From NCBI GenBank assembly GCA_002840435.1, contig PHAT01000001.1, positions 304,300 through 368,299 on the forward strand: a stretch of 64,000 nt of DNA. Direction: 5' to 3'. This document shows positions 3,711-25,012 of the stretch, piece by piece. The translations under genes were made by a program, and so were the position numbers. This DNA is from Deltaproteobacteria bacterium HGW-Deltaproteobacteria-6 (GTDB lineage: Bacteria; Desulfobacterota; Syntrophia; Syntrophales; Smithellaceae). A model generated the notes under the pieces. The model made no database searches. It saw only the letters and a list, made by a program, of their open reading frames with translations, and was not told the origin of the DNA. The first letter of the stretch is position 1. Each line of letters starts with the position of its first letter.

Positions 3711-4958
3711 TTACTTCTCACCTTTTGCCTCATTTTCGAATGCCAGAAGTGCGGAAGGGAAGGGGGCGAGACTGCGCTTGATCACTCCCTGCAGGAAAGA
3801 TATAGCCACGCCATAGTTGGTTACAGGAACACCTGCTTCCTGTGCTTTGCGCAGACGTCCCAGCATTTCGCGGCGATTCATCATACAGGCCCCGCAGTGC
3901 AGAATCAGTTTATACTGCTTTAAATCATCAGGGTAATCCCGTCCCGCCGATGTATCGATCTGCAAATCGACTCCGACGTACTGACGAAGCCAGCGGGGAA
4001 TTTTCACACGGCCGATATCGTCTTCCAGTGCATGATGGGAGCAGGCCTCGGCGATCAGCACCTTGTCGCCCGGCTGCAAGCGGTCAATGGCCGCCGCTCC
4101 CCTTGCCATGACGGCCAAATCAGCCTTTTGGCGCGCAAAAAGAATGGAGAAGGTAGTAACCGGAATCTCCGGCGGAACATCGGCCGTAACTTTCAGAATG
4201 GCCTGAGAATCTGTCACAACAATGGCCGGCGGAATTTTCAGATTAGCCAGTGCTGCGGCCAGTTCTCTTTCTTTGACGACGAGCGTCATGGCGTCATTAT
4301 CCAGCGCATCGCGGATGGTTTGGACCTGGGGGAGAATCAACCGGCCTTTGGGCGCCTGCAAATCAATCGGGACAACCAGTACGGCAAGCCCCCCCGGAGG
4401 CAGCAAATCGCCGATCAGTGAAGAATTACCGGCAAAGTCAGCCGGGGCCAGTTCCAGCAATTGCTGTTTTAAGGTTTCCAGATATTTCTGCCGCATGGTT
4501 TGGTCGTTGCAGGAAACGGTCAGAATCAACGCTTTTGATTGCAGAAATTGCAGATGATCGGGAGAAGGCTTCTGCAAGTCAATTTTGTTGATGACAATTA
4601 ATACCGGTGTTTTGCGTTTCTGTGCTTCAGCCAGAACGGTTTCCTCAAAATCCGTCCAAATATCCGCTTCAGTGACCAGAATGATAACATCGGCACGGTT
4701 GAAGACTTTGGCTGTTTTCTTCAGACGCGCGGAGGAAAGCTCTGAAATATCGTCAAGTCCGGCTGTGTCGACAAAGAGCACAGGCCCGACAGGCAATAGT
4801 TCCATCGCTTTTTCCACCACATCAGTGGTTGTTCCGGCGACAGGCGAGGTGATGGCGATATCCTGGCCCAGCATTAAATTCAGGAGGCTGGACTTGCCGA
4901 CATTGGTCCGTCCCATCAGAGCAATATGCAGCCGGTTTCCTTTCGGTGTGTTATCCAT
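3711..4958 (-). CDS. hydF: [FeFe]-hydrogenase maturation GTPase HydF
   Basis: HydF is the GTPase scaffold on which the diiron subcluster is assembled before transfer to apo-HydA. At 415 residues it is full length. GTPase motifs are GRTNVGKS (16-23), the switch threonines near 43-45, DTAG (64-67) and NKID (124-127). The C-terminal cluster ligands are C306, H308 (CSH) and HCGAC (H354, C355, C358). The ATG overlaps the aspartase stop by one base (TAATG), so translation is coupled to aspA. No terminator was seen after the gene. Confidence 0.96.
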   Translation of the reverse strand: MDNTPKGNRLHIALMGRTNVGKSSLLNLMLGQDIAITSPVAGTTTDVVEKAMELLPVGPVLFVDTAGLDDISELSSARLKKTAKVFNRADVIILVTEADIWTDFEETVLAEAQKRKTPVLIVINKIDLQKPSPDHLQFLQSKALILTVSCNDQTMRQKYLETLKQQLLELAPADFAGNSSLIGDLLPPGGLAVLVVPIDLQAPKGRLILPQVQTIRDALDNDAMTLVVKERELAAALANLKIPPAIVVTDSQAILKVTADVPPEIPVTTFSILFARQKADLAVMARGAAAIDRLQPGDKVLIAEACSHHALEDDIGRVKIPRWLRQYVGVDLQIDTSAGRDYPDDLKQYKLILHCGACMMNRREMLGRLRKAQEAGVPVTNYGVAISFLQGVIKRSLAPFPSALLAFENEAKGEK

Positions 4959-6435: not shown

Positions 6436-8196
6436 TTAAGCATCTTTTTTATGAGGCATTTCAGTGCCTCTTTTGGTGTACTTCGTGTGCAGTAACTCAT
6501 GCGACTTATGTCCCAGTGGTTCTTTGAGGAACTTATCATAGAGTTTCTTGACCGACTCGTTTTCATGAGACTGCCGTTTCTTCTGCACGTTTCCGTCATC
6601 TTTATAAAGAGCAGCTGAACGTAAAAGACGAATTTCGTTGTTGGTCGGAATGGGCTCTCCACCGCCTGCAATGCAACCGCCGGGGCAGCACATCACTTCG
6701 ATGAAAGCATAGTTGGCCTTGCCTTCCCGGATACGATCCATCAGATTGCGGGCGTTTCCCAGACCATGCGCAACGGCAATACTGACGTCTCCCAGAGCAC
6801 CGACTTTGACGGTGGCTTCTTTAACGCCTTCGAGACCGCGCACGGGGGTGATATCTAGGCTGGGCAGGTTTTCACCGGTAACGACCGCGTAAACGGTGCG
6901 CAGAGCGGCTTCCATAACACCGCCCGTCGCGCCGAAGATGGTGCCGGCGCCCGTGTATTCGCCCATTGGAGCGTCATAGTCCTCATCCGGAAGATTGACA
7001 AAATCAAGGCCGCCTTCATGAATCATCCGGCCCAATTCTCTGGTTGTGAGAACATAATCTACGTCGCGATAACCACTGCTTGCCATTTCCGGCCGCTGAG
7101 CTTCATATTTTTTGGCAGTGCAGGGCATGATGGAAACAGAAACGATATTCTTCGGGTCGATGCCCGCTGTTTCCGCGTAATAGGTTTTGGCCAGAGCACC
7201 GAACATCTGCTGCGGCGATTTGCATGTGGACAGATGAGGCAACAGATCCGGATAGAAGTGTTCGCAGAACTTGATCCAGCCGGGACTGCAAGAGGTGATC
7301 ATCGGCAGCACACCGCCTTCTTTAACTCTTTTGAGTAATTCGTTGCCTTCTTCGATGATGGTAAGGTCGGCGGTGAAGTTGGTGTCGAAAACTTTATCGA
7401 ATCCCAGGCGGCGCAGAGCGGCAATCATCTTACCGGTGACCAGACTTCCCGGAGGCATGCCGAATTCTTCGCCCAGAGCAGCGCGAATAGCCGGAGCTTC
7501 CTGAACGATGACATGTTTGGTTGGATCCTGCAGGGCTTTCCAGACGGCATCGACGTCGTCTTTTTCATAAAGAGCGCCGACCGGACAGGCCATGATGCAC
7601 TGACCGCAGGCGATACAATTGGATTCGATCAAAGGGAGATCGAAGGCCGGTGTCACGCGGACATCGCTGCCGCGGTGGGCAGGAGTCAAAACGCTGACTG
7701 TTTGAATCTGCTCGCAGACGGTTACACAGCGGTGGCATTCAATACATTTACGGCTGTCTCGGACAATGGAAGGGCTGGACTGGTCGATCATATCTTCTTT
7801 CGGGAATTGCGTGTAATCAAAACGAACTTCTCTGATACCGGTAAACTCAGCCACTTTCTGCAATTCGCAGCTGCCGTTTCTTACGCAGAAGTTGCATTCC
7901 TGCGGATGATTGGCCAAAAGAAGTTCTACAACCATTTTTCTGGCTTTGCGGACTTTTTCCGTGTTGGTATGAATAACCATACCCTCGGACACCGGAAAAA
8001 CACAAGCGGCGATCAGGCTGCGCTGACCTTCCACTTCGGTCATACAGACGCGGCACGCGCCCGGTGTGTGATGAATTTCGGGCCAGGCGCAAAGCGTGGG
8101 GATCTTAATGCCGGCGCTGTGGGCAGCCTCCAGAATGGTTGCTCCCGCAGGAACTTCCACAAGACGATTATCGATAGTCAATTTAACTGTTGACAT
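6436..8196 (-). CDS. hydA: [FeFe]-hydrogenase catalytic subunit, group A, multimeric type
   Basis: Reduces protons or oxidises H2 at the H-cluster, as catalytic subunit of a cytoplasmic HydABC/Hnd-type complex. Domains in order: [2Fe-2S] ferredoxin (C36, C48, C51, C65); NuoG-like His-Cys3 site (H97, C101, C104, C110); two [4Fe-4S] sites (C151-C161 and C194-C204); H-cluster domain with L1 TSCSPGW (C303), L2 MPCTAKK (C359) and L3 EVMCCPGGC (C504, C508); and the C-terminal small-subunit region ending HKSHELLHTKY. L1 has Ser304 where many enzymes have a second Cys. It is preceded by a good ribosome binding site (AAAGGAGGAATG). It is separated from hydB by about 290 bases and has its own promoter and terminator. 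Confidence 0.93.
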   Translation of the reverse strand: MSTVKLTIDNRLVEVPAGATILEAAHSAGIKIPTLCAWPEIHHTPGACRVCMTEVEGQRSLIAACVFPVSEGMVIHTNTEKVRKARKMVVELLLANHPQECNFCVRNGSCELQKVAEFTGIREVRFDYTQFPKEDMIDQSSPSIVRDSRKCIECHRCVTVCEQIQTVSVLTPAHRGSDVRVTPAFDLPLIESNCIACGQCIMACPVGALYEKDDVDAVWKALQDPTKHVIVQEAPAIRAALGEEFGMPPGSLVTGKMIAALRRLGFDKVFDTNFTADLTIIEEGNELLKRVKEGGVLPMITSCSPGWIKFCEHFYPDLLPHLSTCKSPQQMFGALAKTYYAETAGIDPKNIVSVSIMPCTAKKYEAQRPEMASSGYRDVDYVLTTRELGRMIHEGGLDFVNLPDEDYDAPMGEYTGAGTIFGATGGVMEAALRTVYAVVTGENLPSLDITPVRGLEGVKEATVKVGALGDVSIAVAHGLGNARNLMDRIREGKANYAFIEVMCCPGGCIAGGGEPIPTNNEIRLLRSAALYKDDGNVQKKRQSHENESVKKLYDKFLKEPLGHKSHELLHTKYTKRGTEMPHKKDA

Positions 8197-8483: not shown

Positions 8484-11400
8484 TTATACAGCCGCATCGC
8501 AACGCAGACAGCGGCATGCTTCCTTCACGGCGTCTTCCCGGCTGAAGCCCAGTTCCACTTCAGCAAAGCTCATCTTGCGGGTGGCATGATGCATTTCGGG
8601 CATCGCCATTTGCGGGGTTTCTACGGATTCTTCATCAATTACCAGCGGCACGATAATTTCTTCCAGCGCCGGTTTTTCGTAAGCCGGTTCATTGTTGGCG
8701 ACACGAATGGCCGCATCGATATCGTCGGCTGCCTGATGGCCTGCGCCGACAGCCGCGATAACGGTGTCAGGGCCCGTTTCCGCATCACCGCCTGCGAAGT
8801 AGCGGGGGTTACTCGTACGGGATTTGTAGCCCTTGCCGACATTGTAACAATCCCACTTGTTGATTTCGACGCCGGTCTTTTTATCGATAAAGCTCATATC
8901 CGGCACCTGGCCGATAGCGGCGACGATGGCATCAACCGCCAGTGTGAATTCGGATCCGGGAACGGCGACGGGTTTCTTCCGGCCGCTTTTATCAAAATCA
9001 CCCAGCGTCATCCGCTGGCAGGTAATGGAGCTGACCTTGCCCTTTTTGCCTTCTATTGTCAGAGGAGCAACCAGGTATTCGATCTTGATGCCTTCTTCTT
9101 CTGCTGCCTTAATTTCTTCTTCCGCCGCCGGCATATCCTGTCTCAAACGCCTATAGAGGATGGTGACGTCGGAGCCAAGACGCAGTGCAACGCGGGCCGC
9201 GTCAATGGCGGAGTTGCCGCCGCCGATCACCGCCACTTTTTTGCCCAGTGTCTTTTCGCCTTTGAGCCACTTGTCTTCGTTGTTGTTGAAGTCGCGCAGG
9301 AATTCAACGCCGCCGAAAACGTTAGCCAACTCTTCTCCTGTTACGCCCATCTTCTGGCTTTTGTGCGCGCCGGTAGCCAGATAGAAGTAATCGAAATCTT
9401 TTTCAATCTGGGCAAAAGAAATGTCGCGGCCAACACGCGTATTAAGACGGATCTCGACGCCCAGAGCCGTGATGTCGTCGATTTCGCCCTGCAAAATGTT
9501 GCGCGGCAGACGGTAGGAGGGAATACCCCAGACGAGCATGCCGCCCGCTTTGTTCAACTCTTCAAAAACGGTCACTTTGTACCCGCGCAAAGCCAGATCA
9601 CGCGCGGCGGTAAGACCGGCGGGACCCGCTCCGATCACAGCGATTTTTTCCTTGCGGGTAACGGGGACTGCTTCTGTTTTGGGACGTGATGCGTTGTCCG
9701 TGATAAAGCGCTTCAGGAACTTAATGGCGAGCGGTTCATCCATATTGCCGCGGCGGCACTTTGATTGACACTTATGATCGCAGACGCGGCCGCAGACGGA
9801 CGGGAAGGGGTTTGTCTGAAGCAGAATTTTGTAGGCGTCTTCAAATCGGCCTTCGCGAATCAGTGCGATATAGGACGGAATATCCATTTCAATCGGACAG
9901 GTGTGCTGGCACGGTGACTTGTACATGGCCGAACAGACGGTCGCGCGGCAGCGATGTTCATAAATATGTTCTTCGTATTCTTTTTTGAAATAACGGATGG
10001 TGCTCAGAACGGGGTTGGGAGCGGTTTGTCCCAGACCGCACAACGCGGCGTTTTTGATGACGCCGGCCATTTCTTCGAGCAGTTCGATGTCGCCTGCTTT
10101 GCCTTTGCCTTTGGTGATGTCGGTTAAAATGTCCAGCATGCGTTTGGTGCCTTCGCGGCAGGGGGTGCATTTGCCGCAGGATTCATCCTGGCAGAAATCC
10201 ATGAAGAACCGGGCCATATCGACGGCGCACTTGTCTTCATTCATGACAATCAATCCGCCGGAACCCATGATGGCTCCCAACTCCGCTACTTTCTCGTAAT
10301 CGACCGAGGCGTTCAGATGCTCAACCGGAATACAACCGCCGGACGGTCCGCCCAATTGCGCTGCCTTGAACTTTTTGCCTTTGGGGATGCCGCCGCCGAT
10401 ATCATAAACGATGGTGCCCAGCTTGGTTCCCATGGGAACTTCTACTAAGCCCACATTGGCCACATCGCCGGTCAGGGCGAAAACTTTTGTTCCCTTGCTT
10501 TTTTCCGTACCGATTGAGGCGTACCATTTGGCGCCGCGCAGCATGATTTGTCCGACATTGGCCAGGGTTTCGACATTATTGAGGATACTGGGTTTCTGCC
10601 ACAATCCGGCCACAGCGGGGAAAGGCGGCCGGGGACGGGGCATGCCGCGTTTACCTTCGATGGAGGTCATGAGCGCCGTTTCTTCACCGCAGACAAACGC
10701 GCCTGCGCCCTGGTAAATCTCCAGATCAAAATCGAAACCGGTTCCTAAAATATCTTTTCCCAGTAAACCGGCTTCTTTGGCCTGGTCAATGGCAATATTT
10801 AAACGATGAATTGCTAACGGGTATTCAGCACGGCAATAGACGTAGCCTGATTTGGCGCCGATCGCTTTAGCCGCGATAACCATGCCTTCCAGAACGGCAT
10901 GCGGATCCGCTTCCAGAACACTGCGGTCCATGAATGCGCCGGGGTCGCCTTCGTCGGCATTGCACAAAACGTATTTGACATCGCCTTTGGACCCGGCTGC
11001 AAACTTCCATTTTAAGCCGGTGGGGAATCCTGCGCCGCCCCGGCCGCGCAAGCCGGAATCCAGCATTTCCTGGACAATTTGCTCCGGCGTCATTTCGGTA
11101 AGCGCCTTAGCCATACCGGCATAACCGTCACGGGCGATATATTCTTCTATTTTTTCGGGATCGATGAGTCCGCGATTTTTCAATACTCTCAATTCCTGAA
11201 GGGAGAAGAAGGGAATATCCTGCATGGTGGGAATGATTTTATCAGTACCCGGTTCCCGGTATAAGAGTCTTTCCAGGGTTCTTCCTTTGATCAGATGTTC
11301 CTCAACCAGTTCGGGAATGTCCGCAGGTTTGAGGTTAACGTATATGACGCCTTCCGGGTAAATCACCATAATAGGACCCAGAGCGCAAAAACCGTTGCAG

Positions 11401-11540
11401 CCTGTTTCCACTACTTTTATTTCTTCTGCCAGCTTTCTTTTGACGAGTTCTTCCAGAAGGGCATTTTTTACGCCTGTACTGCCGGAAGACTGACACCCGG
11501 TGCCCCCGCAAATTAGTAAATGTGAACGGAAAACTTTCAT
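8484..11540 (-). CDS. hydB: Hydrogenase diaphorase subunit HydB/NuoF fused to a GltD-like NAD(P)H:FAD module
   Basis: Probable flavoprotein of the hydrogenase complex, moving electrons between NAD(P)H, ferredoxin and HydA. Of 1018 residues, 1-95 form a thioredoxin-like [2Fe-2S] domain (C11, C16, C48, C52). About 110-520 is NuoF, with GRGGAGFPTGLKW, NADEGDPGAF and the [4Fe-4S] site C455, C458, C461, C501. From 530 to the end is a glutamate-synthase-small-subunit-like module: cysteines from C531, an FAD site GAGPAGLTAA and a second dinucleotide site GGGNSAIDAA. Ordinary HydB ends instead in a two-cluster ferredoxin domain. The added module suggests NADPH use, as in the bifurcating transhydrogenase/Bfu families. 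It lies in line with hndB-like and hydC genes. Confidence 0.9.
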   Translation of the reverse strand: MKVFRSHLLICGGTGCQSSGSTGVKNALLEELVKRKLAEEIKVVETGCNGFCALGPIMVIYPEGVIYVNLKPADIPELVEEHLIKGRTLERLLYREPGTDKIIPTMQDIPFFSLQELRVLKNRGLIDPEKIEEYIARDGYAGMAKALTEMTPEQIVQEMLDSGLRGRGGAGFPTGLKWKFAAGSKGDVKYVLCNADEGDPGAFMDRSVLEADPHAVLEGMVIAAKAIGAKSGYVYCRAEYPLAIHRLNIAIDQAKEAGLLGKDILGTGFDFDLEIYQGAGAFVCGEETALMTSIEGKRGMPRPRPPFPAVAGLWQKPSILNNVETLANVGQIMLRGAKWYASIGTEKSKGTKVFALTGDVANVGLVEVPMGTKLGTIVYDIGGGIPKGKKFKAAQLGGPSGGCIPVEHLNASVDYEKVAELGAIMGSGGLIVMNEDKCAVDMARFFMDFCQDESCGKCTPCREGTKRMLDILTDITKGKGKAGDIELLEEMAGVIKNAALCGLGQTAPNPVLSTIRYFKKEYEEHIYEHRCRATVCSAMYKSPCQHTCPIEMDIPSYIALIREGRFEDAYKILLQTNPFPSVCGRVCDHKCQSKCRRGNMDEPLAIKFLKRFITDNASRPKTEAVPVTRKEKIAVIGAGPAGLTAARDLALRGYKVTVFEELNKAGGMLVWGIPSYRLPRNILQGEIDDITALGVEIRLNTRVGRDISFAQIEKDFDYFYLATGAHKSQKMGVTGEELANVFGGVEFLRDFNNNEDKWLKGEKTLGKKVAVIGGGNSAIDAARVALRLGSDVTILYRRLRQDMPAAEEEIKAAEEEGIKIEYLVAPLTIEGKKGKVSSITCQRMTLGDFDKSGRKKPVAVPGSEFTLAVDAIVAAIGQVPDMSFIDKKTGVEINKWDCYNVGKGYKSRTSNPRYFAGGDAETGPDTVIAAVGAGHQAADDIDAAIRVANNEPAYEKPALEEIIVPLVIDEESVETPQMAMPEMHHATRKMSFAEVELGFSREDAVKEACRCLRCDAAV

Positions 11541-16128: not shown

Positions 16129-17304
16129 TCATACTCTTTCCACCGTGATAATTTTATTCCGGGCATTGAGATCGGCAACCAATTCCCGAATATAGACCAT
16201 TCTCATCGGTTCACCACGGATCAGATCGGCAACCTGGTTGGGATTGATGGCCGTTCCCACAATCAGATGAATATCATCAGCCGCCAGAAAATAGCGGGCC
16301 AGACGCGTCGCGGCGTCGTTGTCTTTGGGCAGATCATGAATTGTCTTAGCGCTCCGCATAATTTCGAGCGCCTGGCCGATGGTTAATATGCCTTCCGTTA
16401 CCAGATTAACGCCTTTGAGCGTGGCGGTGGGCGGCGAGCCTTTTTTCTTCGGTTCTTCACCGGTGCGCTTCCAGGGTGGAATCCACTCCACATCCAGTTT
16501 CTCGTTAAGAACGCGTGCCGCCATCTGGGCCGTGCTGCCGCCGCAGATTATTTTATCTCCCGAAGCGGCCATCAGACGGGAAACTGCAAATTCGTCCATG
16601 TCTTTGTTGGTGGGTGGTCCGGTCAGCACGCAAACGGAAACAGCAGGACGCACTTTCATGCTGATAACGGTGGCATCGTCGCCCGGTTTGTCGCTGTATA
16701 GCTTCATACAGGTTTTAGACATCGCCTCGGTCAGTTTCACGGTATCCACGCCGGTCTGCACGAAACGCTGTACGGCGGTGGCTACGTTTTTCCATCCCCA
16801 GCCCATGCGGTAGATGCCGCCCAGGCCCGCGTGCGTGTAACCGTCGCTGATTAAAACCATATAGTCGTTGTCCAGCAGTTCGAAATGCGCTTCTTTGATG
16901 ATTCTGTCCTTGACCTGACGTTCTTTGACCGGAATATCGAAGATGGCGTTATTGCGAATGAGAATCAACGGCGGGGAATCAAACAGGACGAGATGGGCGT
17001 CACGTCCATGATACACTATCAAAACGGCGAAAGTGGCGTAAGCCAGTTTACGGACGGAGCATTCGGGGAGCGTTTCGGCCAGTGTCTGCATGACATCATC
17101 AACGGTTCCGTCCGCTTCAAACATTCGTGCGGCGATTTCGGCGGTGAGCGACGACAGGATGCTGGCTTTGACACCGCTGCCCAGGCCATCAGATAAAACG
17201 GCCACAAAAGAATCGGCTCTGGTGCGGATCATAACCGAGTCGCCGCATAATTCCTCGTCGGCTTTATTCAGGCTGACCCAGTTGCATTCAACAAGTTGTC
17301 TCAC
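16129..17304 (-). CDS. SpoIIE/PP2C-family serine phosphatase of the HydS operon
   Basis: A 391-residue protein. Residues 1-215 form a PP2C-type (SpoIIE) phosphatase with metal-binding motifs SDGLGSG near residue 40, VLISDGYTHAG and DDATVISM. The remaining 170 residues are unassigned. The gene starts with GTG overlapping the HydS stop (GTGA), so the two are made together. Sensory group C [FeFe] proteins are known to occur with such phosphatases. A likely job is dephosphorylating a serine or threonine on a regulator in response to the HydS signal; the target is unknown. Confidence 0.82.
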   Translation of the reverse strand: MRQLVECNWVSLNKADEELCGDSVMIRTRADSFVAVLSDGLGSGVKASILSSLTAEIAARMFEADGTVDDVMQTLAETLPECSVRKLAYATFAVLIVYHGRDAHLVLFDSPPLILIRNNAIFDIPVKERQVKDRIIKEAHFELLDNDYMVLISDGYTHAGLGGIYRMGWGWKNVATAVQRFVQTGVDTVKLTEAMSKTCMKLYSDKPGDDATVISMKVRPAVSVCVLTGPPTNKDMDEFAVSRLMAASGDKIICGGSTAQMAARVLNEKLDVEWIPPWKRTGEEPKKKGSPPTATLKGVNLVTEGILTIGQALEIMRSAKTIHDLPKDNDAATRLARYFLAADDIHLIVGTAINPNQVADLIRGEPMRMVYIRELVADLNARNKIITVERV

Positions 17305-19019
17305 TTCGATTCTTCCTCTTCCAGGATTTTTGCCAGATGCGTGACAATCATTTTACTCTCCGCCGTGGTTTCTCCTAAAAGATGGGCAATCTCGTGGGCC
17401 ACCCGCATTTGTTTCTGGACGACTTGGCGGGTTTGTTCCAGCGTTTGCGCGCGGAGTTCGTGAAATTTATGTTTTTCCGTTTCATGTTCGGTAATGTCGC
17501 GCATGATGGCAACGAGCAGGGATTGTCCTTCCACCCTTACAATGTTTTGTTCCGCCACAATGCGGTCATTGAGGCGCCGGATTCTTGCAATGACGGGCTT
17601 TCCCGTGTCACGTACGGAGACAAAGTCGTCATAAAGCGGGATCAGACGTGAAATGTGCTTTCCTTTGACGTCCGTAAGCAAACAGCCGAAGAGGTTTTCG
17701 GCCGATGGAGACATGTCCTGAATGCCGAGATGATTATCGAGGATGATAATGGAATTCGGAGATGCGTCCATGACGACCTGGCGCAGAGATTCGGAACGGC
17801 TGCGCATGTAGGGAATACACATGGTGACTTCCGCCATTCCGCGCAATGTGGCAATGGCTTTTTCGCGGCAGCTCCCATAGCCGCAGGCACCGCAGTTGAG
17901 CTCGTCGTCCGGCGTGTATTTGTTGACGCGTCTCAGCACGGTTCTGATCTCTTCTTCACTGAATTCCGGAACAGGTTCTTTCCGGTCCATGTAAGCGCGG
18001 AACAGATCCGGCCAGCTTTCGCGGGCAATCATGGCATAGGCCGGGCGGTGGCGATGGTATTCAATAATCTTCTGGCGAGCCGCGTAGATGCCGCCATCCA
18101 GATCGGCCATGGCCGGGCCGTTAATGCAGCCGCCGGTGCACGCCATCAATTCCACGAGGGAGGCGTTTAACTGACCGGCGCGGATGTCGCCCAGAATATT
18201 CCGGCAGGTTTCCAGACCACTGGCGACCACCAGCGAATTATTCAGCATATCCGTACTTAGTTTTGCCGTTCCGACCAGACCCCCTTCTATGGGAAAAAGC
18301 CGCGCGTCAACCGGGGTTGAGGGTTTAAGACTGCTTGCGGCTTTGTCAAAAACGATTCCTGTTTCTTTGAACCAGTTGGCAAGACCGCGAAAGGTGATGG
18401 CCACCGAAACCGCTCCCGCTTCAGATGCATCGAGGATTTCCATCTTTTTGGCAATGCATGGACCAATAAAGACGATATAGGCGTCCGGTCCGTATTTTTG
18501 GACAAGCAGACGGCCGTGCGCGATCATCGGCGAGACGATGGGCGCCAGATGAGGAATCAGATCAGGATAATACTTTTCGATTAAATTGACGACAACCGGG
18601 CAGGCGGAGGCAATTACCGGCCATCGATCCGGCATCTGTTCCACGTAGTCGCGGTGGGCCAAGCCGACGATTTCAGCCCCGACGGCGGTTTCTTCGGCTG
18701 CGTAAAACCCCAGTTGCTTGAGTGCCGCTTCCATTTCTGAAAAATGATGGAACCCGAAATAGGCGGGGGCGGAGGGTGCAACCGAGGCGATGACTTTCCG
18801 TCCGTTCCGGAGTGCATGTCTCACATCGGGGGCGGCGCTATGAACATCTTTTGCTTTTTGCGGGCAGGTGCGAATGCAGGTTCCGCAAAGAATACAAAGT
18901 TCGGGCATCACCTGGGCCTGTCCATCGTGAACGCGAATGGCTTTGACATCGCAATGGCGCACGCAACGGTAACAATCACGGCAGCGGGCGGCGTTGGTTA
19001 TGATGACGGGTTCATTCAT
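17301..19019 (-). CDS. hydS: Sensory [FeFe]-hydrogenase-like protein with PAS domain (group C, HydS type)
   Basis: A putative H2 or redox sensor. Of 572 residues, two [4Fe-4S] sites come first (C13, C16, C19, C23; C42, C45, C48, C52). The H-cluster domain follows with L1 ASACP (C140), L2 GPCIAKK (C188) and L3 ELMACTGGC (C294, C298). All four H-cluster ligands are kept, but the proton-shuttle cysteine is Ala139, as reported for Thermotoga HydS. Next come an Fe-S domain (NCGACGYGSC near 365), a PAS domain (about 400-510) and a C-terminal helix. It has no kinase or cyclase output domain of its own. It is translationally coupled to a PP2C phosphatase, probably its output. Confidence 0.88.
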   Translation of the reverse strand: MNEPVIITNAARCRDCYRCVRHCDVKAIRVHDGQAQVMPELCILCGTCIRTCPQKAKDVHSAAPDVRHALRNGRKVIASVAPSAPAYFGFHHFSEMEAALKQLGFYAAEETAVGAEIVGLAHRDYVEQMPDRWPVIASACPVVVNLIEKYYPDLIPHLAPIVSPMIAHGRLLVQKYGPDAYIVFIGPCIAKKMEILDASEAGAVSVAITFRGLANWFKETGIVFDKAASSLKPSTPVDARLFPIEGGLVGTAKLSTDMLNNSLVVASGLETCRNILGDIRAGQLNASLVELMACTGGCINGPAMADLDGGIYAARQKIIEYHRHRPAYAMIARESWPDLFRAYMDRKEPVPEFSEEEIRTVLRRVNKYTPDDELNCGACGYGSCREKAIATLRGMAEVTMCIPYMRSRSESLRQVVMDASPNSIIILDNHLGIQDMSPSAENLFGCLLTDVKGKHISRLIPLYDDFVSVRDTGKPVIARIRRLNDRIVAEQNIVRVEGQSLLVAIMRDITEHETEKHKFHELRAQTLEQTRQVVQKQMRVAHEIAHLLGETTAESKMIVTHLAKILEEEESK

Positions 19020-19060: not shown

Positions 19061-19336
19061 TCACACAGGTTTTTTTGGCAACAGGGTGCTTTTAACATAC
19101 CCCATGATCTCTTTATAAAAAAAATCCTCGGCCTGCTGAGGGCGGATGCCGCTGAATTCGCGTTCGCCCACCCGCACGGAAACACCCTTGGAGCAGGCAT
19201 CCATGCAGAAAGCGCCGACGATATCGACCAGCCCTTCCAGCTTTTCTTTTTCAATCAAGCGAAACAATTCCGAGGCCAGTTCGTCGGAGCCTCGCAAGCT
19301 GCATGAACTGCCGACACAAATGGTTATCAAAAGCAT
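19061..19336 (-). CDS. Small thioredoxin-like [2Fe-2S] protein
   Basis: A 91-residue protein equal to the C-terminal half of NuoE/HydC. Cluster ligands are C7 and C12 (CVGSSC) and C44 and C48 (CMDAC). It starts one base after the stop of the 1144-residue hydrogenase, so it is probably its electron-transfer partner or a link from that enzyme to HydS, the next gene. The helical NuoE N-terminus is absent. No other NuoE or NuoF gene is in this operon. Confidence 0.8.
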   Translation of the reverse strand: MLLITICVGSSCSLRGSDELASELFRLIEKEKLEGLVDIVGAFCMDACSKGVSVRVGEREFSGIRPQQAEDFFYKEIMGYVKSTLLPKKPV

Positions 19337-19337
19337 T

Positions 19338-22300
19338 TTATTTACCCGCTTCTTCCGTATGGATCATCGGTATCAGATGGGCATCGATAAAAGCGGAGGC
19401 CTGATCCAGATTATCCACGGATATGATTTTGTTACCGATTGCCACATTGGGTCCGCCTTCGCATTGTCCCGTGCAGAAACGCGCCTTAACGCGGAAACGC
19501 TCCGCCAGTCCGCGCTTTCTTAATTCGGCGGCCAGTCCTTCCAGCAGCCTCCAGGAGCCTTTGATGTAACAGTTGGTCCCGATGCAGACGCCGACATCCA
19601 CCACAGGTCCGGATGCCACTTCTTCTTCCTTGATATCCTGCACGCGCATGGAGCGGCGCTTGTAAGTGGTGTGCAAAGCGTGGTGCGACGTTTCGCTGTC
19701 CGGCTGTCCCAGCCAGTTCGTGTAAATATCCTGAACGGAGGGATTATCCTGGCTGGTGCGAATGGGCGCTTCCTGATCCAGGCGATACAGGACGTCGAGG
19801 CGATGCTCCGCATCGCTTTTCAAAAGCGGCGCCGGATTACCGGAGCCGTTGATGCAGCCGCCGGGGCAGGCCATAATTTCAATCAAATCATACGGGGCGT
19901 CGCCGGCCCTCATCCGGTCGATCAAGGCCTGAGCGTTTTGCAGGCCGCTGACCACTGCCAGCCTCACTTTAGAGTCGCCCAGGGTAATGGTTGTTTCTTT
20001 GACGCCCTGGAGCCCGCGGACACCTTCATAGTTAAAGCTGTCCATGCGTTTGCCCATGACGCGCTCCGCGGCCAGACGAAGCGCTGCTTCGGCCACGCCG
20101 CCGCTGGCGCCGAAAATAATCCCCGCGCCGGATACTTTTCCGAAGAAAGCATCCACCGGCACTGGCGTAATTATACGCGGATCGATATTTTTCTCCCCCA
20201 GCATGGTCATCACATCCCAGGTTGTGAGAACTTTATCTACATCCTGGATGTGATCGGTTTTGAATTCGGGGCGCATGGATTCATATTTTTTGGCGTTGCA
20301 AGGCATGATGGAAACAAAGTAAAGCAGTTCCGGCCGGACCTTGAGTTGTTTGGCGAAATATTGCTTCATCACCGCGCCGAACATCTGTTGCGGCGATTTG
20401 CAGGAGGACAGATGCGGTAAAATATCCGGCGCCATTTTTTCGCAGTAATTAACCCAGGCCGGACAGCAGGAGGTAATTTGCGGCAGAACGCCGCCTTCGG
20501 CCAGACGGGATAGAAATTCCGTGCCTTCTTCCATGATGGTCAGATCGGCCGCCCAACAGGTGTCAAAGACAAAATTGAAGCCCAGCTGTTTCAAACAGGC
20601 GCTCAAGACCGGCATGACGTCGGCGCCCGCGATACCGTATTTTTCGCCGAAAGCGGCGCGGACGGCCGGGGCAATTTGAGCAACGACGGTGAAGTCCGGA
20701 TTTTTCAACGCCCGGTAAACGTCGGGTAATGCCGGTTTCAGGGTCAATGCTCCGGTGGGGCAGACCATGGCGCAGTGGCCGCATGCTACGCAGACGGTCA
20801 TATCCAGCGGCCGATGGTCGTTGGGGCCGATCGTTAAAATATCGTTGGTTTCATAAAAGCTCAGCGCGGAAACGCCTTCCATTTCCCGGCAGACTTTCAG
20901 GCACAGACCGCACAAAATACACTTGCCTGCATCCCGCGTGATAATGGGATGGTTTTCATCAACAGGCAGTGGGGTAGCCGGTTGCGTCGGATCGTATTCG
21001 ACGCCATAGTCGCTGGCGTAGTTGCGAAGCTGGCAGTCATAGCGTTCCGTGCAGCCGCAGGCGATACAGCGGGAGGCTTCCGCCATGACAGTTTCCTGAT
21101 CCCATGTCGTGGATGATTCTTCAAAATTTGTTTTTCTGATTTGCGGTTCCAGCACCGGTACTTCCAGACGGTGGGCCGGTTTGATATCCTTGAATGTATC
21201 CGGCGGCAAATCCTTCCATTTGCCTTTGGTGCACGTATAGGGATCATCCTTGACGGTGACGGATCCCGCACAGATGTATTCATCGATGGCTGCGGCGGCA
21301 CGTTTGCCCGCGCCGATGGCGGCAATCGCAATGTCCGGGCCGGTGACACAGTCGCCGCCGGAGAAAACCCAGGGCAGGGCCGTCTGCATGGTTTGCGGAT
21401 TTACCAAAACGTTGCCCCATTTATCAATTAATGTTTTGTCGCCGATACAGATGCCGTCAACCGCCTGACCGATGGCGGAAATAATCGTCGTTGCCGTGAG
21501 CGTGAATTCCGAACCTTCCTGCGGGACGGGCCGCCGCCTGCCGCTTTTGTCCGGCTCTCCCAACGTCATTCTCACGCAGGTCATTTGCAGGGTGTCGCCC
21601 GCTGCTGAAATGGAAACCGGTGCGGTGAGAAACTGTATGTTGACGCCTTCTTCAATGGCTTCTTCAATTTCAATATCCTGGGCGGGCATTTCCTGGCGGG
21701 GGCGGCGATAAGCGACAATTACTTCTTTGACGCCCAGTCGCACGGCGCTGCGCGCCGCGTCCATGGCCGTGTTGCCACCGCCGATGACAATGACACGATA
21801 GCCAAGCTCCGGTTTTTCACCTCTAGCCAGTTTGGCGAGAAAATCGAGTCCGGACATGACGCCCTGTGCATCCTCGCCTTTCGCGCCCATAGCGGTTGCT
21901 TTTTGCGCGCCCAGCCCTAAGAAGACGGCTTCAAAGCCGTCCCGTTTGAGCGATTCCAGCGTAAAATCGCGGCCCAGTTTTTTATTATAAAAGATGCTGA
22001 CGCCCAGATCGAGGATGCCTTGAATTTCCGCATCCAGGTCCTTTTCAGGCAGGCGGTAGTAAGGAATTCCCCAGCGCAGCATGCCTCCTGCCGCTTCCTG
22101 CATTTCAAAAATGGTAACCGAATGACCCAATCTTCGCAAAAACCAGGCGGCGGAAAGTCCTGCCGGTCCTGCCCCGATAATGGCGATCTTGTGTCCTGTG
22201 TCCGGTAGGCAGAGGGGCTTGTAGGGCTCCAACTGGAAGGTGTCCCAGTCGGCGACATAGCGCTTGATGCCGTTGATGTTGACTGCGCCGTCCAGAGCGT

Positions 22301-22772
22301 TGCGCCGGCAATCCGCTTCACAGGGGTGAGGGCAGACACGGCCGCAAACGGCGGGCAGGGGATTACTTTCTTTGATGACGGCGAGCGCTTCGAGAAAATT
22401 ACCGCAGTTGACATGGTAAATATACTTCTGAATATCGATATGCGCCGGACAGCGTGAAACGCAGGGCGCGACGCAGTCACCGTAATGGTGGCGCAACAAA
22501 GCCTGGAGGTAAATACGGCGATAGCTTTGAAGGGCTTCGGACTGAGTGCGGATTACCATACCGTCGAAAACAGGTGTAGACGTGGCGGAAACAAATCTGG
22601 TTTTGACGCCGTCATTAATTTCCACAAATGCGGCTTCAACATTACTCGGGGGAGTGACGCGCGGATCATATCCCAGAGAGGGGATGTCTATCCCATATGA
22701 GCGGGCCACATCTATAATGGTCAAACCAGTGACTGTCGTGCAGTCTTTTCCATCAATATTTACTGTAATCAT
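19338..22772 (-). CDS. [FeFe]-hydrogenase with inserted GltD-like module and cysteine-free ferredoxin domain
   Basis: A cytoplasmic hydrogenase of 1144 residues that likely exchanges electrons with NAD(P)H directly. Residues 1-78 are a NuoG/HydA-type ferredoxin domain in which the four cluster positions are G34, V45, A48 and T64, so no [2Fe-2S] cluster can form. About 100-570 is a GltD-like module (C100, C104, C108, then FAD site GAGPAGLSAA and GGGNTAMDAA). Two [4Fe-4S] sites follow (CILCGLCLKVC, CVACGHCAMVC). The H domain has L1 TSCCPAW (C769, C770), L2 C825 and L3 C969 and C973. A thioredoxin-like [2Fe-2S] domain closes it (C1063, C1068, C1100, C1104). First gene of the HydS operon, with its own strong promoter. 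Confidence 0.88.
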   Translation of the reverse strand: MITVNIDGKDCTTVTGLTIIDVARSYGIDIPSLGYDPRVTPPSNVEAAFVEINDGVKTRFVSATSTPVFDGMVIRTQSEALQSYRRIYLQALLRHHYGDCVAPCVSRCPAHIDIQKYIYHVNCGNFLEALAVIKESNPLPAVCGRVCPHPCEADCRRNALDGAVNINGIKRYVADWDTFQLEPYKPLCLPDTGHKIAIIGAGPAGLSAAWFLRRLGHSVTIFEMQEAAGGMLRWGIPYYRLPEKDLDAEIQGILDLGVSIFYNKKLGRDFTLESLKRDGFEAVFLGLGAQKATAMGAKGEDAQGVMSGLDFLAKLARGEKPELGYRVIVIGGGNTAMDAARSAVRLGVKEVIVAYRRPRQEMPAQDIEIEEAIEEGVNIQFLTAPVSISAAGDTLQMTCVRMTLGEPDKSGRRRPVPQEGSEFTLTATTIISAIGQAVDGICIGDKTLIDKWGNVLVNPQTMQTALPWVFSGGDCVTGPDIAIAAIGAGKRAAAAIDEYICAGSVTVKDDPYTCTKGKWKDLPPDTFKDIKPAHRLEVPVLEPQIRKTNFEESSTTWDQETVMAEASRCIACGCTERYDCQLRNYASDYGVEYDPTQPATPLPVDENHPIITRDAGKCILCGLCLKVCREMEGVSALSFYETNDILTIGPNDHRPLDMTVCVACGHCAMVCPTGALTLKPALPDVYRALKNPDFTVVAQIAPAVRAAFGEKYGIAGADVMPVLSACLKQLGFNFVFDTCWAADLTIMEEGTEFLSRLAEGGVLPQITSCCPAWVNYCEKMAPDILPHLSSCKSPQQMFGAVMKQYFAKQLKVRPELLYFVSIMPCNAKKYESMRPEFKTDHIQDVDKVLTTWDVMTMLGEKNIDPRIITPVPVDAFFGKVSGAGIIFGASGGVAEAALRLAAERVMGKRMDSFNYEGVRGLQGVKETTITLGDSKVRLAVVSGLQNAQALIDRMRAGDAPYDLIEIMACPGGCINGSGNPAPLLKSDAEHRLDVLYRLDQEAPIRTSQDNPSVQDIYTNWLGQPDSETSHHALHTTYKRRSMRVQDIKEEEVASGPVVDVGVCIGTNCYIKGSWRLLEGLAAELRKRGLAERFRVKARFCTGQCEGGPNVAIGNKIISVDNLDQASAFIDAHLIPMIHTEEAGK

Positions 22773-23240: not shown

Positions 23241-23747
23241 ATGAAGACAGCAGACTTAAAAGACAACACTATCAACACAAGAGAAGGCAAATACTTAACT
23301 TTTACTTTGGCCGACGAAGAATACGGCATAGGTATTCTAAAAGTTAAGGAAATCATAGGTGTGATTACCATTACCGGAATTCCGCAGACACCGCCGCATG
23401 TCAAGGGGGTGATCAATCTGCGTGGCAAGATCATTCCCGTCATTGATCTGCGGCTGAAATTTGGTCTGCCGGCTATGGAATACACCGAACGAACTTGTAT
23501 TATTGTCATAGAGATATCTAAAGATGATACTCACATTCTGATTGGTATTCTTGTGGATTCCGTTTCGGAGGTCATAAACATTAAAGGCGCGGATATCGAA
23601 GATACGCCTAATTTCGGAAGCAATTTAAATACGGATTATATCCTGGGAATGGCAAAATCCATTGGAAAAATTAAAATTCTGCTGGATATTGACCGGGTCA
23701 TGAATGCGGATGATGTGGCGATACTGGAGAAAACAACCACTATATAA
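23241..23747 (+). CDS. cheW: CheW-family chemotaxis coupling protein
   Basis: CheW links methyl-accepting proteins to the kinase CheA at the inner membrane. The 168-residue protein shows the family's core: KYLTFTLADEEYGIGILKVKEI, followed by PPHVKGVINLRGKIIPVIDLR and LVDSVSEVINI. GAGG precedes the ATG by seven bases. The next gene is a methyl-accepting protein 41 bases downstream, so the two form a small operon. No cheA, cheY, cheB or cheR is in the window, so the pair must work with a kinase encoded elsewhere or in a non-motility role. Confidence 0.93.
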   Translation: MKTADLKDNTINTREGKYLTFTLADEEYGIGILKVKEIIGVITITGIPQTPPHVKGVINLRGKIIPVIDLRLKFGLPAMEYTERTCIIVIEISKDDTHILIGILVDSVSEVINIKGADIEDTPNFGSNLNTDYILGMAKSIGKIKILLDIDRVMNADDVAILEKTTTI

Positions 23748-23788
23748 ACAGGAAGACATACCCATATTAAAAGGTGAGGAGCTAAATT

Positions 23789-25012
23789 ATGTCACAAATG
23801 AAATTGAGAATGAGAGTGATCAGCATATTCGCAATCATAGCCGTTATTATGGCTTTGATCGGAGTCATGGTTATTTATCAGCTTTATAACATTGATAGTT
23901 CCAACATAGAGGGCGTAAATGCCAGTATGCGGATAACTGGCATATTTACGGTAATTGGCGTTATCGTGACGATTATTCTCGGGTTGTATGTAAGCCGGAA
24001 AGTAACCGGAGCTCTGGAAAAAGGTGTTAAAGGATTATCAGAAGTGATCAGCAAGGTTTCTTCCGGGTCTGTGCAGGTGTTTTCCTCCGCCCAGCAACTG
24101 GCTGACGGGGCGAGTTCTCAGGCTTCATCACTCGAACAAACGTCTTCCTCACTGGAAGAATTATCGTCCATGACGAAACAGAATGCGGATAATGCTTCCC
24201 AGGCCAGAGCCATGATGCAGGAAGCCGGTCACATTGTTGAAAAAGTTAACCGGCACATGGATGATATGGCCAAAGCTATTGCCGAAATAACCAAATCGTC
24301 GGAAGAAACGGGAAAGATCATCAAGACGATCGATGAGATTGCTTTCCAGACCAATCTATTGGCCTTGAATGCGGCGGTGGAAGCGGCGCGCGCCGGTGAA
24401 GCCGGAGCGGGTTTTGCCGTTGTCGCGGATGAAGTGCGCAATCTGGCGATGCGCTCAGCCGAGGCGGCAAAAAACACCAGCGAACTTATCGAAAACACGA
24501 TGAAAGCCGTTAAGAACGGGAATGAATTAACCAGTTCCACACAGGAAGCTTTCAAAGACAACATGGCGTCTTCCACAAAAATCAGCCAACTGGTTGATGA
24601 AATCGCCACAGCTTCCCAGGAGCAGGCGCATGGCATTGCCCAGATCAACCGCGCCGTGGCTGAAATGGATAAGATTGTTCAACAGGCGGCCTATAATGCT
24701 GAAGCTTCAGCAACGGCGGCGGAAACAATGAATACCGAAGTTAATCATCTGGAAAGGCGGATGGAGGATTTAGCGGGTATGGTTGGCGCTGAAATTAACA
24801 TCAGCAAAACAAAAATATCTCATATCGAAAAGCATGCCGCTCCGGCCGGAAAGGCCTCGGGCAAGATGACGGTTAAACCGGCTGCTGGACACAAAATGCT
24901 TGCCGCACCTCCTGTTCACAAAATGAAGAAGGGCGCTGCGCCGGCGAAGCAGGCATCGGTAAGACCGGAACAAGTCATTCCTTTCGACAAAGACGACTTC
25001 AAGGATTTTTAG
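23789..25012 (+). CDS. Methyl-accepting chemotaxis protein without periplasmic sensor domain
   Basis: A 407-residue inner-membrane receptor. Two transmembrane helices (about 11-31 and 50-68) are joined by only about 20 residues, so there is no periplasmic ligand domain. The cytoplasmic part is a long coiled coil with the conserved hairpin tip [20 protein letters not shown] and [10 protein letters not shown]. The tail is rich in K, A and P and ends KDDFKDF, not a CheR-tethering pentapeptide. Any stimulus must be sensed in the membrane or the cytoplasm. It is paired with CheW. Confidence 0.92.

Follow-up and report, generated by a model that had tools for sequence, protein, structure and literature searches.

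Architecture of the fusion protein

The gene analyzed here lies in a 64,000-nucleotide stretch of DNA from Deltaproteobacteria bacterium HGW-Deltaproteobacteria-6 (Smithellaceae; assembly GCA_002840435.1, contig PHAT01000001.1, positions 304,300 to 368,299), referred to as the window; coordinates are those of the window, and features lie on its reverse strand unless stated otherwise. The gene (19338..22772) encodes a GltD-[FeFe] hydrogenase fusion of 1144 aa, as judged from the open reading frame call, Pfam and TIGRFAM profiles and structure-sequence alignments, and its N-terminal ferredoxin domain has no cluster cysteines. The domain order is Fer2, GltD, a four-cysteine (Cys4) cluster, two [4Fe-4S] clusters, the H-cluster domain, a small subunit and a thioredoxin-like [2Fe-2S] domain. 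Conservation was assessed in an alignment of 27 rows, comprising the window protein and its counterparts at 26 homologous loci (66-94% identity), which are together called the clade. These loci come from 25 assemblies, as two of them (L011 and L014) belong to one genome (G050) that carries two copies of the Cys-free fusion, and they were found by near-exact peptide patterns, so that the sample leans to close relatives.

The Fer2 (beta-grasp) domain without cluster cysteines spans residues 1-95 (22488..22772) and was recognized by its fold, by conservation and by the Pfam profile Fer2_4 (residues 1-78, 38.7 bits with a cut-off of 22.8). It is followed by Fer4_20 and a GltD-type module for flavin adenine dinucleotide (FAD) and NAD(P)H (residues 97-505, 21258..22484; Fer4_20 at 100-177, Pyr_redox_2 at 195-489) with two predicted [4Fe-4S] clusters and conserved residues K170 and R240. 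Placed after GltD is the four-cysteine site C569-xx-C572-x-C574-x5-C580 (20973..21092), which alignment and conservation mark as the counterpart of the His-Cys cluster of HydA; the NuoG-type His-Cys domain PF10588, found in the HydA of the window, was not called by Pfam in the fusion. Two [4Fe-4S] clusters are assigned to C618-C671 (20733..20951) by Pfam (4Fe-4S domains at about 610-677) and by conserved cysteines. The H-cluster domain (19845..20690; Fe_hyd_lg_C at 695-976, 294.9 bits) contains the motifs TSCCPAW, MPCNAKKYE and MACPGGCINGSG. Its L1 motif TSCCPAW and C769, C770, C825, C969 and C973 are intact in 27/27 rows. A hydrogenase small-subunit-like tail (19653..19808; Fe_hyd_SSU at 989-1040) precedes the C-terminal thioredoxin-like [2Fe-2S] domain (19383..19610; residues 1059-1126). 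That such a domain closes the protein had been proposed from the sequence at the outset and holds: the profile score is borderline (23.7 bits, just below the Pfam cut-off of 24.8), and the four cysteines C1063, C1068, C1100 and C1104 are kept in 26/27 rows, the remaining row (L036) ending before them.

The fusion meets the profile for group A [FeFe] hydrogenases, TIGR02512 (456.7 bits with a cut-off of 405.95). With the profile of the NADH-dependent group A6, NF040763, it stays below the cut-off (605 vs 765 bits), and the HydA of the window passes (909.7 bits). Likewise, the GltD-like cassette profile PRK12814 (NF009454) gave 679.3 bits, below its cut-off of 916.

Loss of the four cluster cysteines

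According to the original prediction, G34, V45, A48 and T64 stand at the four ligand positions of the [2Fe-2S] cluster, and alignment with HydA (6436..8196) and with the solved StnC-type proteins placed them there. Within the clade, position 1 (G34, 22671..22673) is G in 27/27 rows, position 2 (V45, 22638..22640) is V in 10, F in eight, I in six and L, T or A in one row each, position 3 (A48, 22629..22631) is A in 19 and S in eight, and position 4 (T64, 22581..22583) is T in 25 and I or L in one row each. A cysteine is thus present at none of the four sites in any row. At each site it is present in 28/28 proteins outside the clade that share the Fer2-GltD-Fer4 cassette (41-46% identical where measured). 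These 28 comprise 26 other StnC-like proteins, two of which (L076 and L077) came from a separate search, and two sister hydrogenase-GltD fusions (L041 and L042).

The remaining predicted cluster ligands were said to be kept, and they are: Cys 100, 104, 108, 143, 147, 151 and 155, Cys 569, 572, 574 and 580, Cys 618, 621, 624 and 628 and Cys 661, 664, 667 and 671 are present in 27/27 rows, in addition to the C-terminal four described above. Two other explanations had been named beforehand, namely cysteines shifted to nearby positions and a window protein that alone is degenerate among intact homologues. The only cysteine recurring in at least three rows within residues 1-99 is C11 (22/27, second predicted strand), and therefore the cluster cysteines have not moved nearby. 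The homologue search, set beforehand as a test, showed the Cys-free state to be fixed in the clade; the window protein is not alone, although distant homologues, including the sister fusion, do keep the four cysteines. Degeneration in the window only, or an assembly error, is ruled out by the 27 Cys-free rows together with ratios of nonsynonymous to synonymous substitution rates (dN/dS) well below 1. The Cys-free Fer2 domain of the fusion is thereby confirmed, and the case is stronger than first made, since a whole clade shares this state while its outgroups carry the cysteines. No description of a GltD-hydrogenase fusion of this kind or of a Cys-free Fer2 domain in a hydrogenase was found among the search results listed for the openly licensed PubMed Central (PMC) literature.

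Fold and selection of the Cys-free domain

An AF2 model of residues 1-100, built from the 27-row alignment, reached a predicted local distance difference test (pLDDT) score of 82.3. The former cluster loop falls into the least confident parts of the model, which are the blocks at 31-50 (pLDDT 65-69) and residues 91-100. In Foldseek the model matched StnC, HydA1 of T. kivui, CpI and NuoG-type subunits of complex I (E down to 2.3e-6), and among the 50 matches listed by VIA the Z scores were 10.1-11.3 over 88-95 residues at 3.6-4.9 Å root-mean-square deviation. The expectation that the N-terminal domain keeps the NuoG/HydA ferredoxin fold is therefore supported by profile, model and structural matches alike.

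The Cys-free Fer2 domain is under purifying selection, with a clade median dN/dS of 0.152 vs 0.074 for the H domain. As a control, we used 23 HydA orthologues with intact Fer2 cysteines, consisting of the window protein and L091-L112 out of 26 matches (L090 is the window itself, L113 is partial and two had no locus); here the medians were 0.099 for Fer2 vs 0.038 for the H domain. All medians include only pairs with 0.1<dS<1.5 (in the clade 79 of 351 pairs for Fer2 and 124 for the H domain), and these pairs are not independent. Given this control, the Cys-free domain is no more relaxed relative to its own H domain than a cluster-bearing one, and relaxed decay of the domain finds no support.

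Relatives and origin of the fusion

The closest named relatives of the fusion gene are metagenome-assembled genomes of Smithellaceae/Syntrophaceae. A full-length fusion was found in 13 of 51 genomes of the family and 18 of 155 of the order, and 55 of 395 genomes of the phylum gave a match at E<=1e-140. In the phylum search two candidates were scored per genome and loci were taken for the best only, so that other Cys-free lineages could be missed.

From residue 2 to 679 the fusion aligns end to end with StnC-type proteins of known structure, namely those of Caldicellulosiruptor saccharolyticus Nfn-ABC (9bov, E 5.3e-187) and of the Sporomusa ovata StnABC transhydrogenase (8oh5, E 1.2e-162), with which it shares Fer2, a two-cluster GltD with FAD/NADPH, Cys4 and two [4Fe-4S] clusters. 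The GltD block is common to the StnC-like proteins examined and not special to this hydrogenase. Unlike StnC and Nfn-ABC, the fusion has lost the four Fer2 cysteines, and an H-cluster domain replaces the FdhF-like C-terminal domain. Pfam scans of 24 of the 26 other cassette proteins (not L063 and L077) revealed none with Fe_hyd_lg_C at E<=1e-8, while 23 carry a domain of the molybdopterin-oxidoreductase type and L076 has neither.

The C-terminal half resembles the HydA proteins with a thioredoxin tail (T. maritima, 7p5h; 670-677-aa HydA proteins in the phylum), which also have two [4Fe-4S] clusters, the H-cluster, the small-subunit tail and a C-terminal thioredoxin [2Fe-2S] domain. They differ from the fusion, which has a GltD block, Cys4 in place of the His-Cys site, no ligands for the [2Fe-2S] cluster of the FS2 domain and no adjacent HydBC genes. 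The fold of the Fer2 and H domains is shared with CpI and CaHydA1 (M3-type), but a flavin module is absent from CpI-type enzymes, in which FS2 is kept.

The same architecture through the H domain is found in the sister fusion L041 of genome G297 (full length; Fe_hyd_lg_C 275.6 bits). L042, from genome G255 of the same genus (both genomes are from the phylum of the window), ends at a contig end, and another contig probably carries the remainder of its H domain. Both are 45% identical to the fusion and, unlike it, keep the four Fer2 cysteines; the C-terminal domain of L041 has diverged. In the cassette tree, from which L038, L039 and L040 were omitted as the same genes as L018, L034 and L035 (equal identities), the Cys-free clade forms one side of a 100/100 branch, adjoined at 94/94 by L041 and L042 on long branches, which call for caution. 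In the H-domain tree the long-branched L041 joins the clade at 100/99, and the next and nearest HydA group is the thioredoxin-tailed one (96/87); 13 of the 27 fusion rows were supplied for this tree, four of which dropped out through a crude cut, and hydrogenase rows more than 60% identical to the query were left out.

A census of 34 hydrogenase rows outside the clade gave 29 with four Fer2 cysteines and three without a Fer2 domain; the others are L132, cut by an upstream stop, and L041, cut by its locus (the complete copy has four cysteines). Cysteines were scored with a regular expression admitting longer-loop forms (24 rows) and, for the remaining rows, by reading the sequences.

The cysteine loss has a single origin in our sample. 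It probably happened once and after the fusion event, because all 28 other cassette proteins, including a sister fusion, retain the four cysteines. The original prediction had a GltD module inserted into a ready-made HydA, which is not borne out: the Fer2-GltD-Fer4 cassette is of StnC type, and the H domain to which it is attached is that of a thioredoxin-tailed HydA. The economical reading of these alignments and trees would be one such fusion, followed by loss of the four cysteines in one daughter line. The protein is a variant of a known enzyme type and not a new type of enzyme.

Genomic neighbourhood

The flanks covered at the 26 loci, several of which reach less than 2 kb on one side, contain no NuoF-type gene closer than 2 kb to the fusion. 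In this respect the fusion is unlike StnC, as it has no StnAB-type partner and the NuoF-type gene is that of StnB, and unlike the A subunits of HydABC and Bfu, from which it differs both in the absence of a neighbouring HydB/BfuB gene and in having none of the four Fer2 cysteines. A NuoF gene was seen in 11 of the 26 loci at 2.3 to 8.3 kb from the fusion; six of these 11 (L021, L023, L025, L034, L035 and L036), like the window, show a separate HydA in the NuoF operon, and the other five loci end earlier. The source genome has a single further NuoF, which neighbours a different Fer2 protein on another contig. Among the 26 other StnC-like rows, 13 have NuoF directly adjacent, all with four cysteines.

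One base past the stop codon of the fusion, a 91-aa thioredoxin-like [2Fe-2S] protein is encoded (19061..19336; 19.5 bits, under the Pfam cut-off of 24.8). It is followed by an [FeFe] hydrogenase-PAS protein of HsfB type, a probable sensor as judged by profiles (17301..19019), and by a SpoIIE-type phosphatase identified by a profile match (16129..17304). A match to the 91-aa protein lies 5 to 94 bases downstream of the fusion in 18 of the 26 loci, then an HsfB-type protein. Neither was found downstream in seven Syntrophorhabdus-like loci (1.5-8 kb covered); L035 has an HsfB-like gene upstream of the fusion, and L036 ends inside the fusion.

Proposed electron route

The original prediction held that the flavin module feeds electrons into the protein and that the old ferredoxin is kept as structure. 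While the fresh insertion of GltD that it assumed does not stand, the fixed Cys-free state, the retained fold and the purifying selection agree with part of this reading. In StnC, according to the structure paper, NADPH reduces the FAD of the GltD part, clusters C7, C6, C5, C4 and C3 lead to StnB, the flavin is non-bifurcating, and the counterpart of K170 is an unusual lysine ligand of the cluster next to FAD (PMC10482914). K170 is invariant in the clade (27/27) and in the other cassette proteins (28/28), and the R239 counterpart is conserved too; the same genome also encodes a plain GltD-like protein, in which the apparent K170 position, read by eye, is Glu. From that paper and the invariant cluster ligands, we infer that GltD serves as the electron port.

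The HydABC Y-junction is described as joining the side of the flavin mononucleotide (FMN), the H-cluster and, via the His-ligated cluster, the neighbouring protomer (PMC9499530). From the known cluster complement of HydA it can be deduced that the FMN arm is the [2Fe-2S] cluster A3; in StnABC as well as HydABC, the [2Fe-2S] cluster of Fer2 belongs to the path leading to the NuoF-type FMN subunit. In CaHydA1 the FS2 domain with its [2Fe-2S] cluster is reported as the likely ferredoxin dock (PMC12645427). In the fusion, GltD adjoins Cys4, the equivalent of the His arm; of the other two arms, the one to the H-cluster is intact and the one to FMN/ferredoxin is lost. This pattern points to a chain from NADPH to H2 without an external port. 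We therefore somewhat favor the view, drawn from sequence and from analogy, that the protein may be a one-chain, ferredoxin-independent, non-bifurcating NADPH:H+ (H2) oxidoreductase of syntrophs in which the arm of the Y-junction to NuoF/ferredoxin is disconnected. In the StnC-like GltD module, FAD would accept a hydride from NADPH. Single electrons would then leave the flavin via the two [4Fe-4S] clusters in the front part of GltD, reach the four-Cys cluster (569-580) and continue over the two ferredoxin-type [4Fe-4S] clusters; at the H-cluster they would form H2, or the flow would run in reverse. Loss of all four Fer2 ligands would cut the arm towards an NuoF-type FMN subunit or ferredoxin and commit the chain to the GltD-to-H-cluster route, with the Fer2 domain staying as a structural cap.

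A precedent for cluster loss is the Nfn-Bfu enzyme of Thermococcus sibiricus, which is reported to be without the A4 cluster cysteines and thought to use another arm (PMC9304861). The energetics would permit the reaction: with reported values of about -370 mV for NADPH and -340 mV for H2 at 250 Pa (PMC6288185), NADPH is able to drive the formation of H2 as long as H2 stays low. Should the inferred reaction be true, syntrophic bacteria would have a simple route for NADPH electrons to H2 without ferredoxin. The clade also suggests that one of three electrical connections was cut in evolution, in every close relative examined; with one arm removed by nature and a Cys-bearing sister at hand, the role of each arm becomes testable. 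Tentatively, the loss may be regarded as a natural knock-out, indicating that the [2Fe-2S] arm is a mere NuoF/ferredoxin port that can be switched off once GltD plugs into the third arm.

Several points weigh against this interpretation. In the flanks covered, the other 13 of the 26 cassette genes have no NuoF directly beside them (seven were covered over only about 1.5 kb and six more widely, one of the six showing a NuoF-like fragment at a distance of about 6.5 kb), yet they keep the four cysteines. The same is true of L041, for which 4 kb on the upstream side and about 8.7 kb on the downstream side contain no NuoF. Absence of a NuoF neighbour is therefore not enough to predict cysteine loss, which weakens the view of the loss as its simple consequence; moreover, flanks are short in several loci. 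The whole-protein model (pLDDT 57.6) is too poor for cluster distances, and the choice of NADPH over NADH follows from sequence similarity. For CpI, the FS4C domain rather than FS2 is proposed as the ferredoxin contact (PMC12645427), so that a port role of FS2 is not general. An expression study of methanogenic reactors reports that genes for making formate, and not those for making H2, were expressed by most syntrophic fatty-acid-degrading Desulfobacterota species, including Smithellaceae (PMC7382037); this argues against any large flux through H2 in vivo. Finally, the Stn text puts the [2Fe-2S] cluster as C4 inside the chain C7-C6-C5-C4-C3 (PMC10482914). If this placement is literal, loss of the [2Fe-2S] cluster might also disturb the route from GltD. 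The cluster order of complex I seems at odds with such a mid-chain [2Fe-2S] label.

Alternatively, the enzyme could bifurcate on its own, with the GltD flavin sending one share of the electrons to the H-cluster and the other to a second acceptor by way of the C-terminal [2Fe-2S] cluster or the 91-aa protein. NfnB-type GltD flavins are described as bifurcating (PMC10482914), the C-terminal ligands are conserved in every complete row, and the small [2Fe-2S] gene is tightly linked in 18 of the 26 loci. We nevertheless consider this unlikely: the cassette, including K170, is like that of StnC with its reportedly non-bifurcating flavin, cluster A5 at the C-terminus of T. maritima HydA is described as isolated, >30 Å from the others, and the small gene was not found downstream in the seven-member Syntrophorhabdus-like subclade.

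It is improbable that the fusion is mainly a sensory enzyme of an HsfB/SpoIIE operon rather than a catabolic one. The succession of 91-aa and HsfB-type proteins in 18 loci, with the phosphatase after them in the window, would fit such a role, but the proton-relay Cys of TSCCPAW is kept in all rows, whereas sensory hydrogenases are described as being without it, and the Syntrophorhabdus-like subclade has no such neighbours downstream. Similarly, it appears highly improbable that the fusion is an alternative HydA which still binds to HydBC but is unwired and acts as a decoy or regulator. Such a role would agree with the retained Fer2 fold and with a NuoF/HydB gene 5.2-8.3 kb away in 10 of the 26 loci (2.3 kb, on the other strand, in L036); however, HydB has its own HydA wherever the locus extends that far, and no NuoF is seen in the flanks covered at 15 of the 26 loci, four of which are Syntrophorhabdus-like and were covered for 4.9-8 kb on the upstream and 8 kb on the downstream side. 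Retention of a metal centre by the Fer2 domain, via non-Cys ligands or shared across a dimer, is very improbable, as no Cys or His occurs at or beside the four sites in 27/27 rows and the YDP(R/K) part of the very conserved loop GYDPRV(S/T)PP is also present in several Cys-bearing relatives, despite the invariance of D36, R38, E46 and E51.

Other genes of the window and related cassette proteins

The comparison protein HydA belongs to a separate HydABC operon and has its four Fer2 cysteines intact. It carries TSCSPGW; Ser replaces the proton-relay Cys of TSCCP in 23/23 family orthologues (window and L091-L112), and for this reason the canonical HydA, and not the fusion, may be the slower enzyme. 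HydB (8484..11540) combines NuoF with a C-terminal GltD (DPD_II + FAD), so that the window holds GltD in two different hydrogenase subunits. A GltD-type module of this kind in a hydrogenase complex is also described for the sub-type I BfuABC of Hydrogenedentota; there the module forms the C-terminal end of HydB, which is also its place in the HydB of the window, whereas in the fusion it belongs to the hydrogenase subunit (PMC11406978).

The window also encodes the H-cluster maturation GTPase HydF, as annotated (3711..4958), and a radical-SAM/BATS protein, both of which fit an active H-cluster. A CheW protein and a methyl-accepting chemotaxis protein (23241-25012, forward strand) adjoin the fusion divergently, and a CheW match also occurs near L029.

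In G297 (L041/L078), the sister fusion with its diverged C-terminal domain has no NuoF-type gene in the stretch examined. A match on a Collinsella aerofaciens plasmid (L089) proved not to be a fusion: a GltD-type protein and a group A HydA are encoded there by two adjacent genes, with the Fer2 cysteines intact, and this pair may represent the same concept divided over two subunits. Seven of the cassette proteins, 824-828 aa long (L044, L045, L048, L049, L056, L057 and L065) all end at position 81 of 353 of the molybdopterin profile; this shared end may reflect UGA read as selenocysteine, in which case they would be formate dehydrogenases with the same NADPH cassette.

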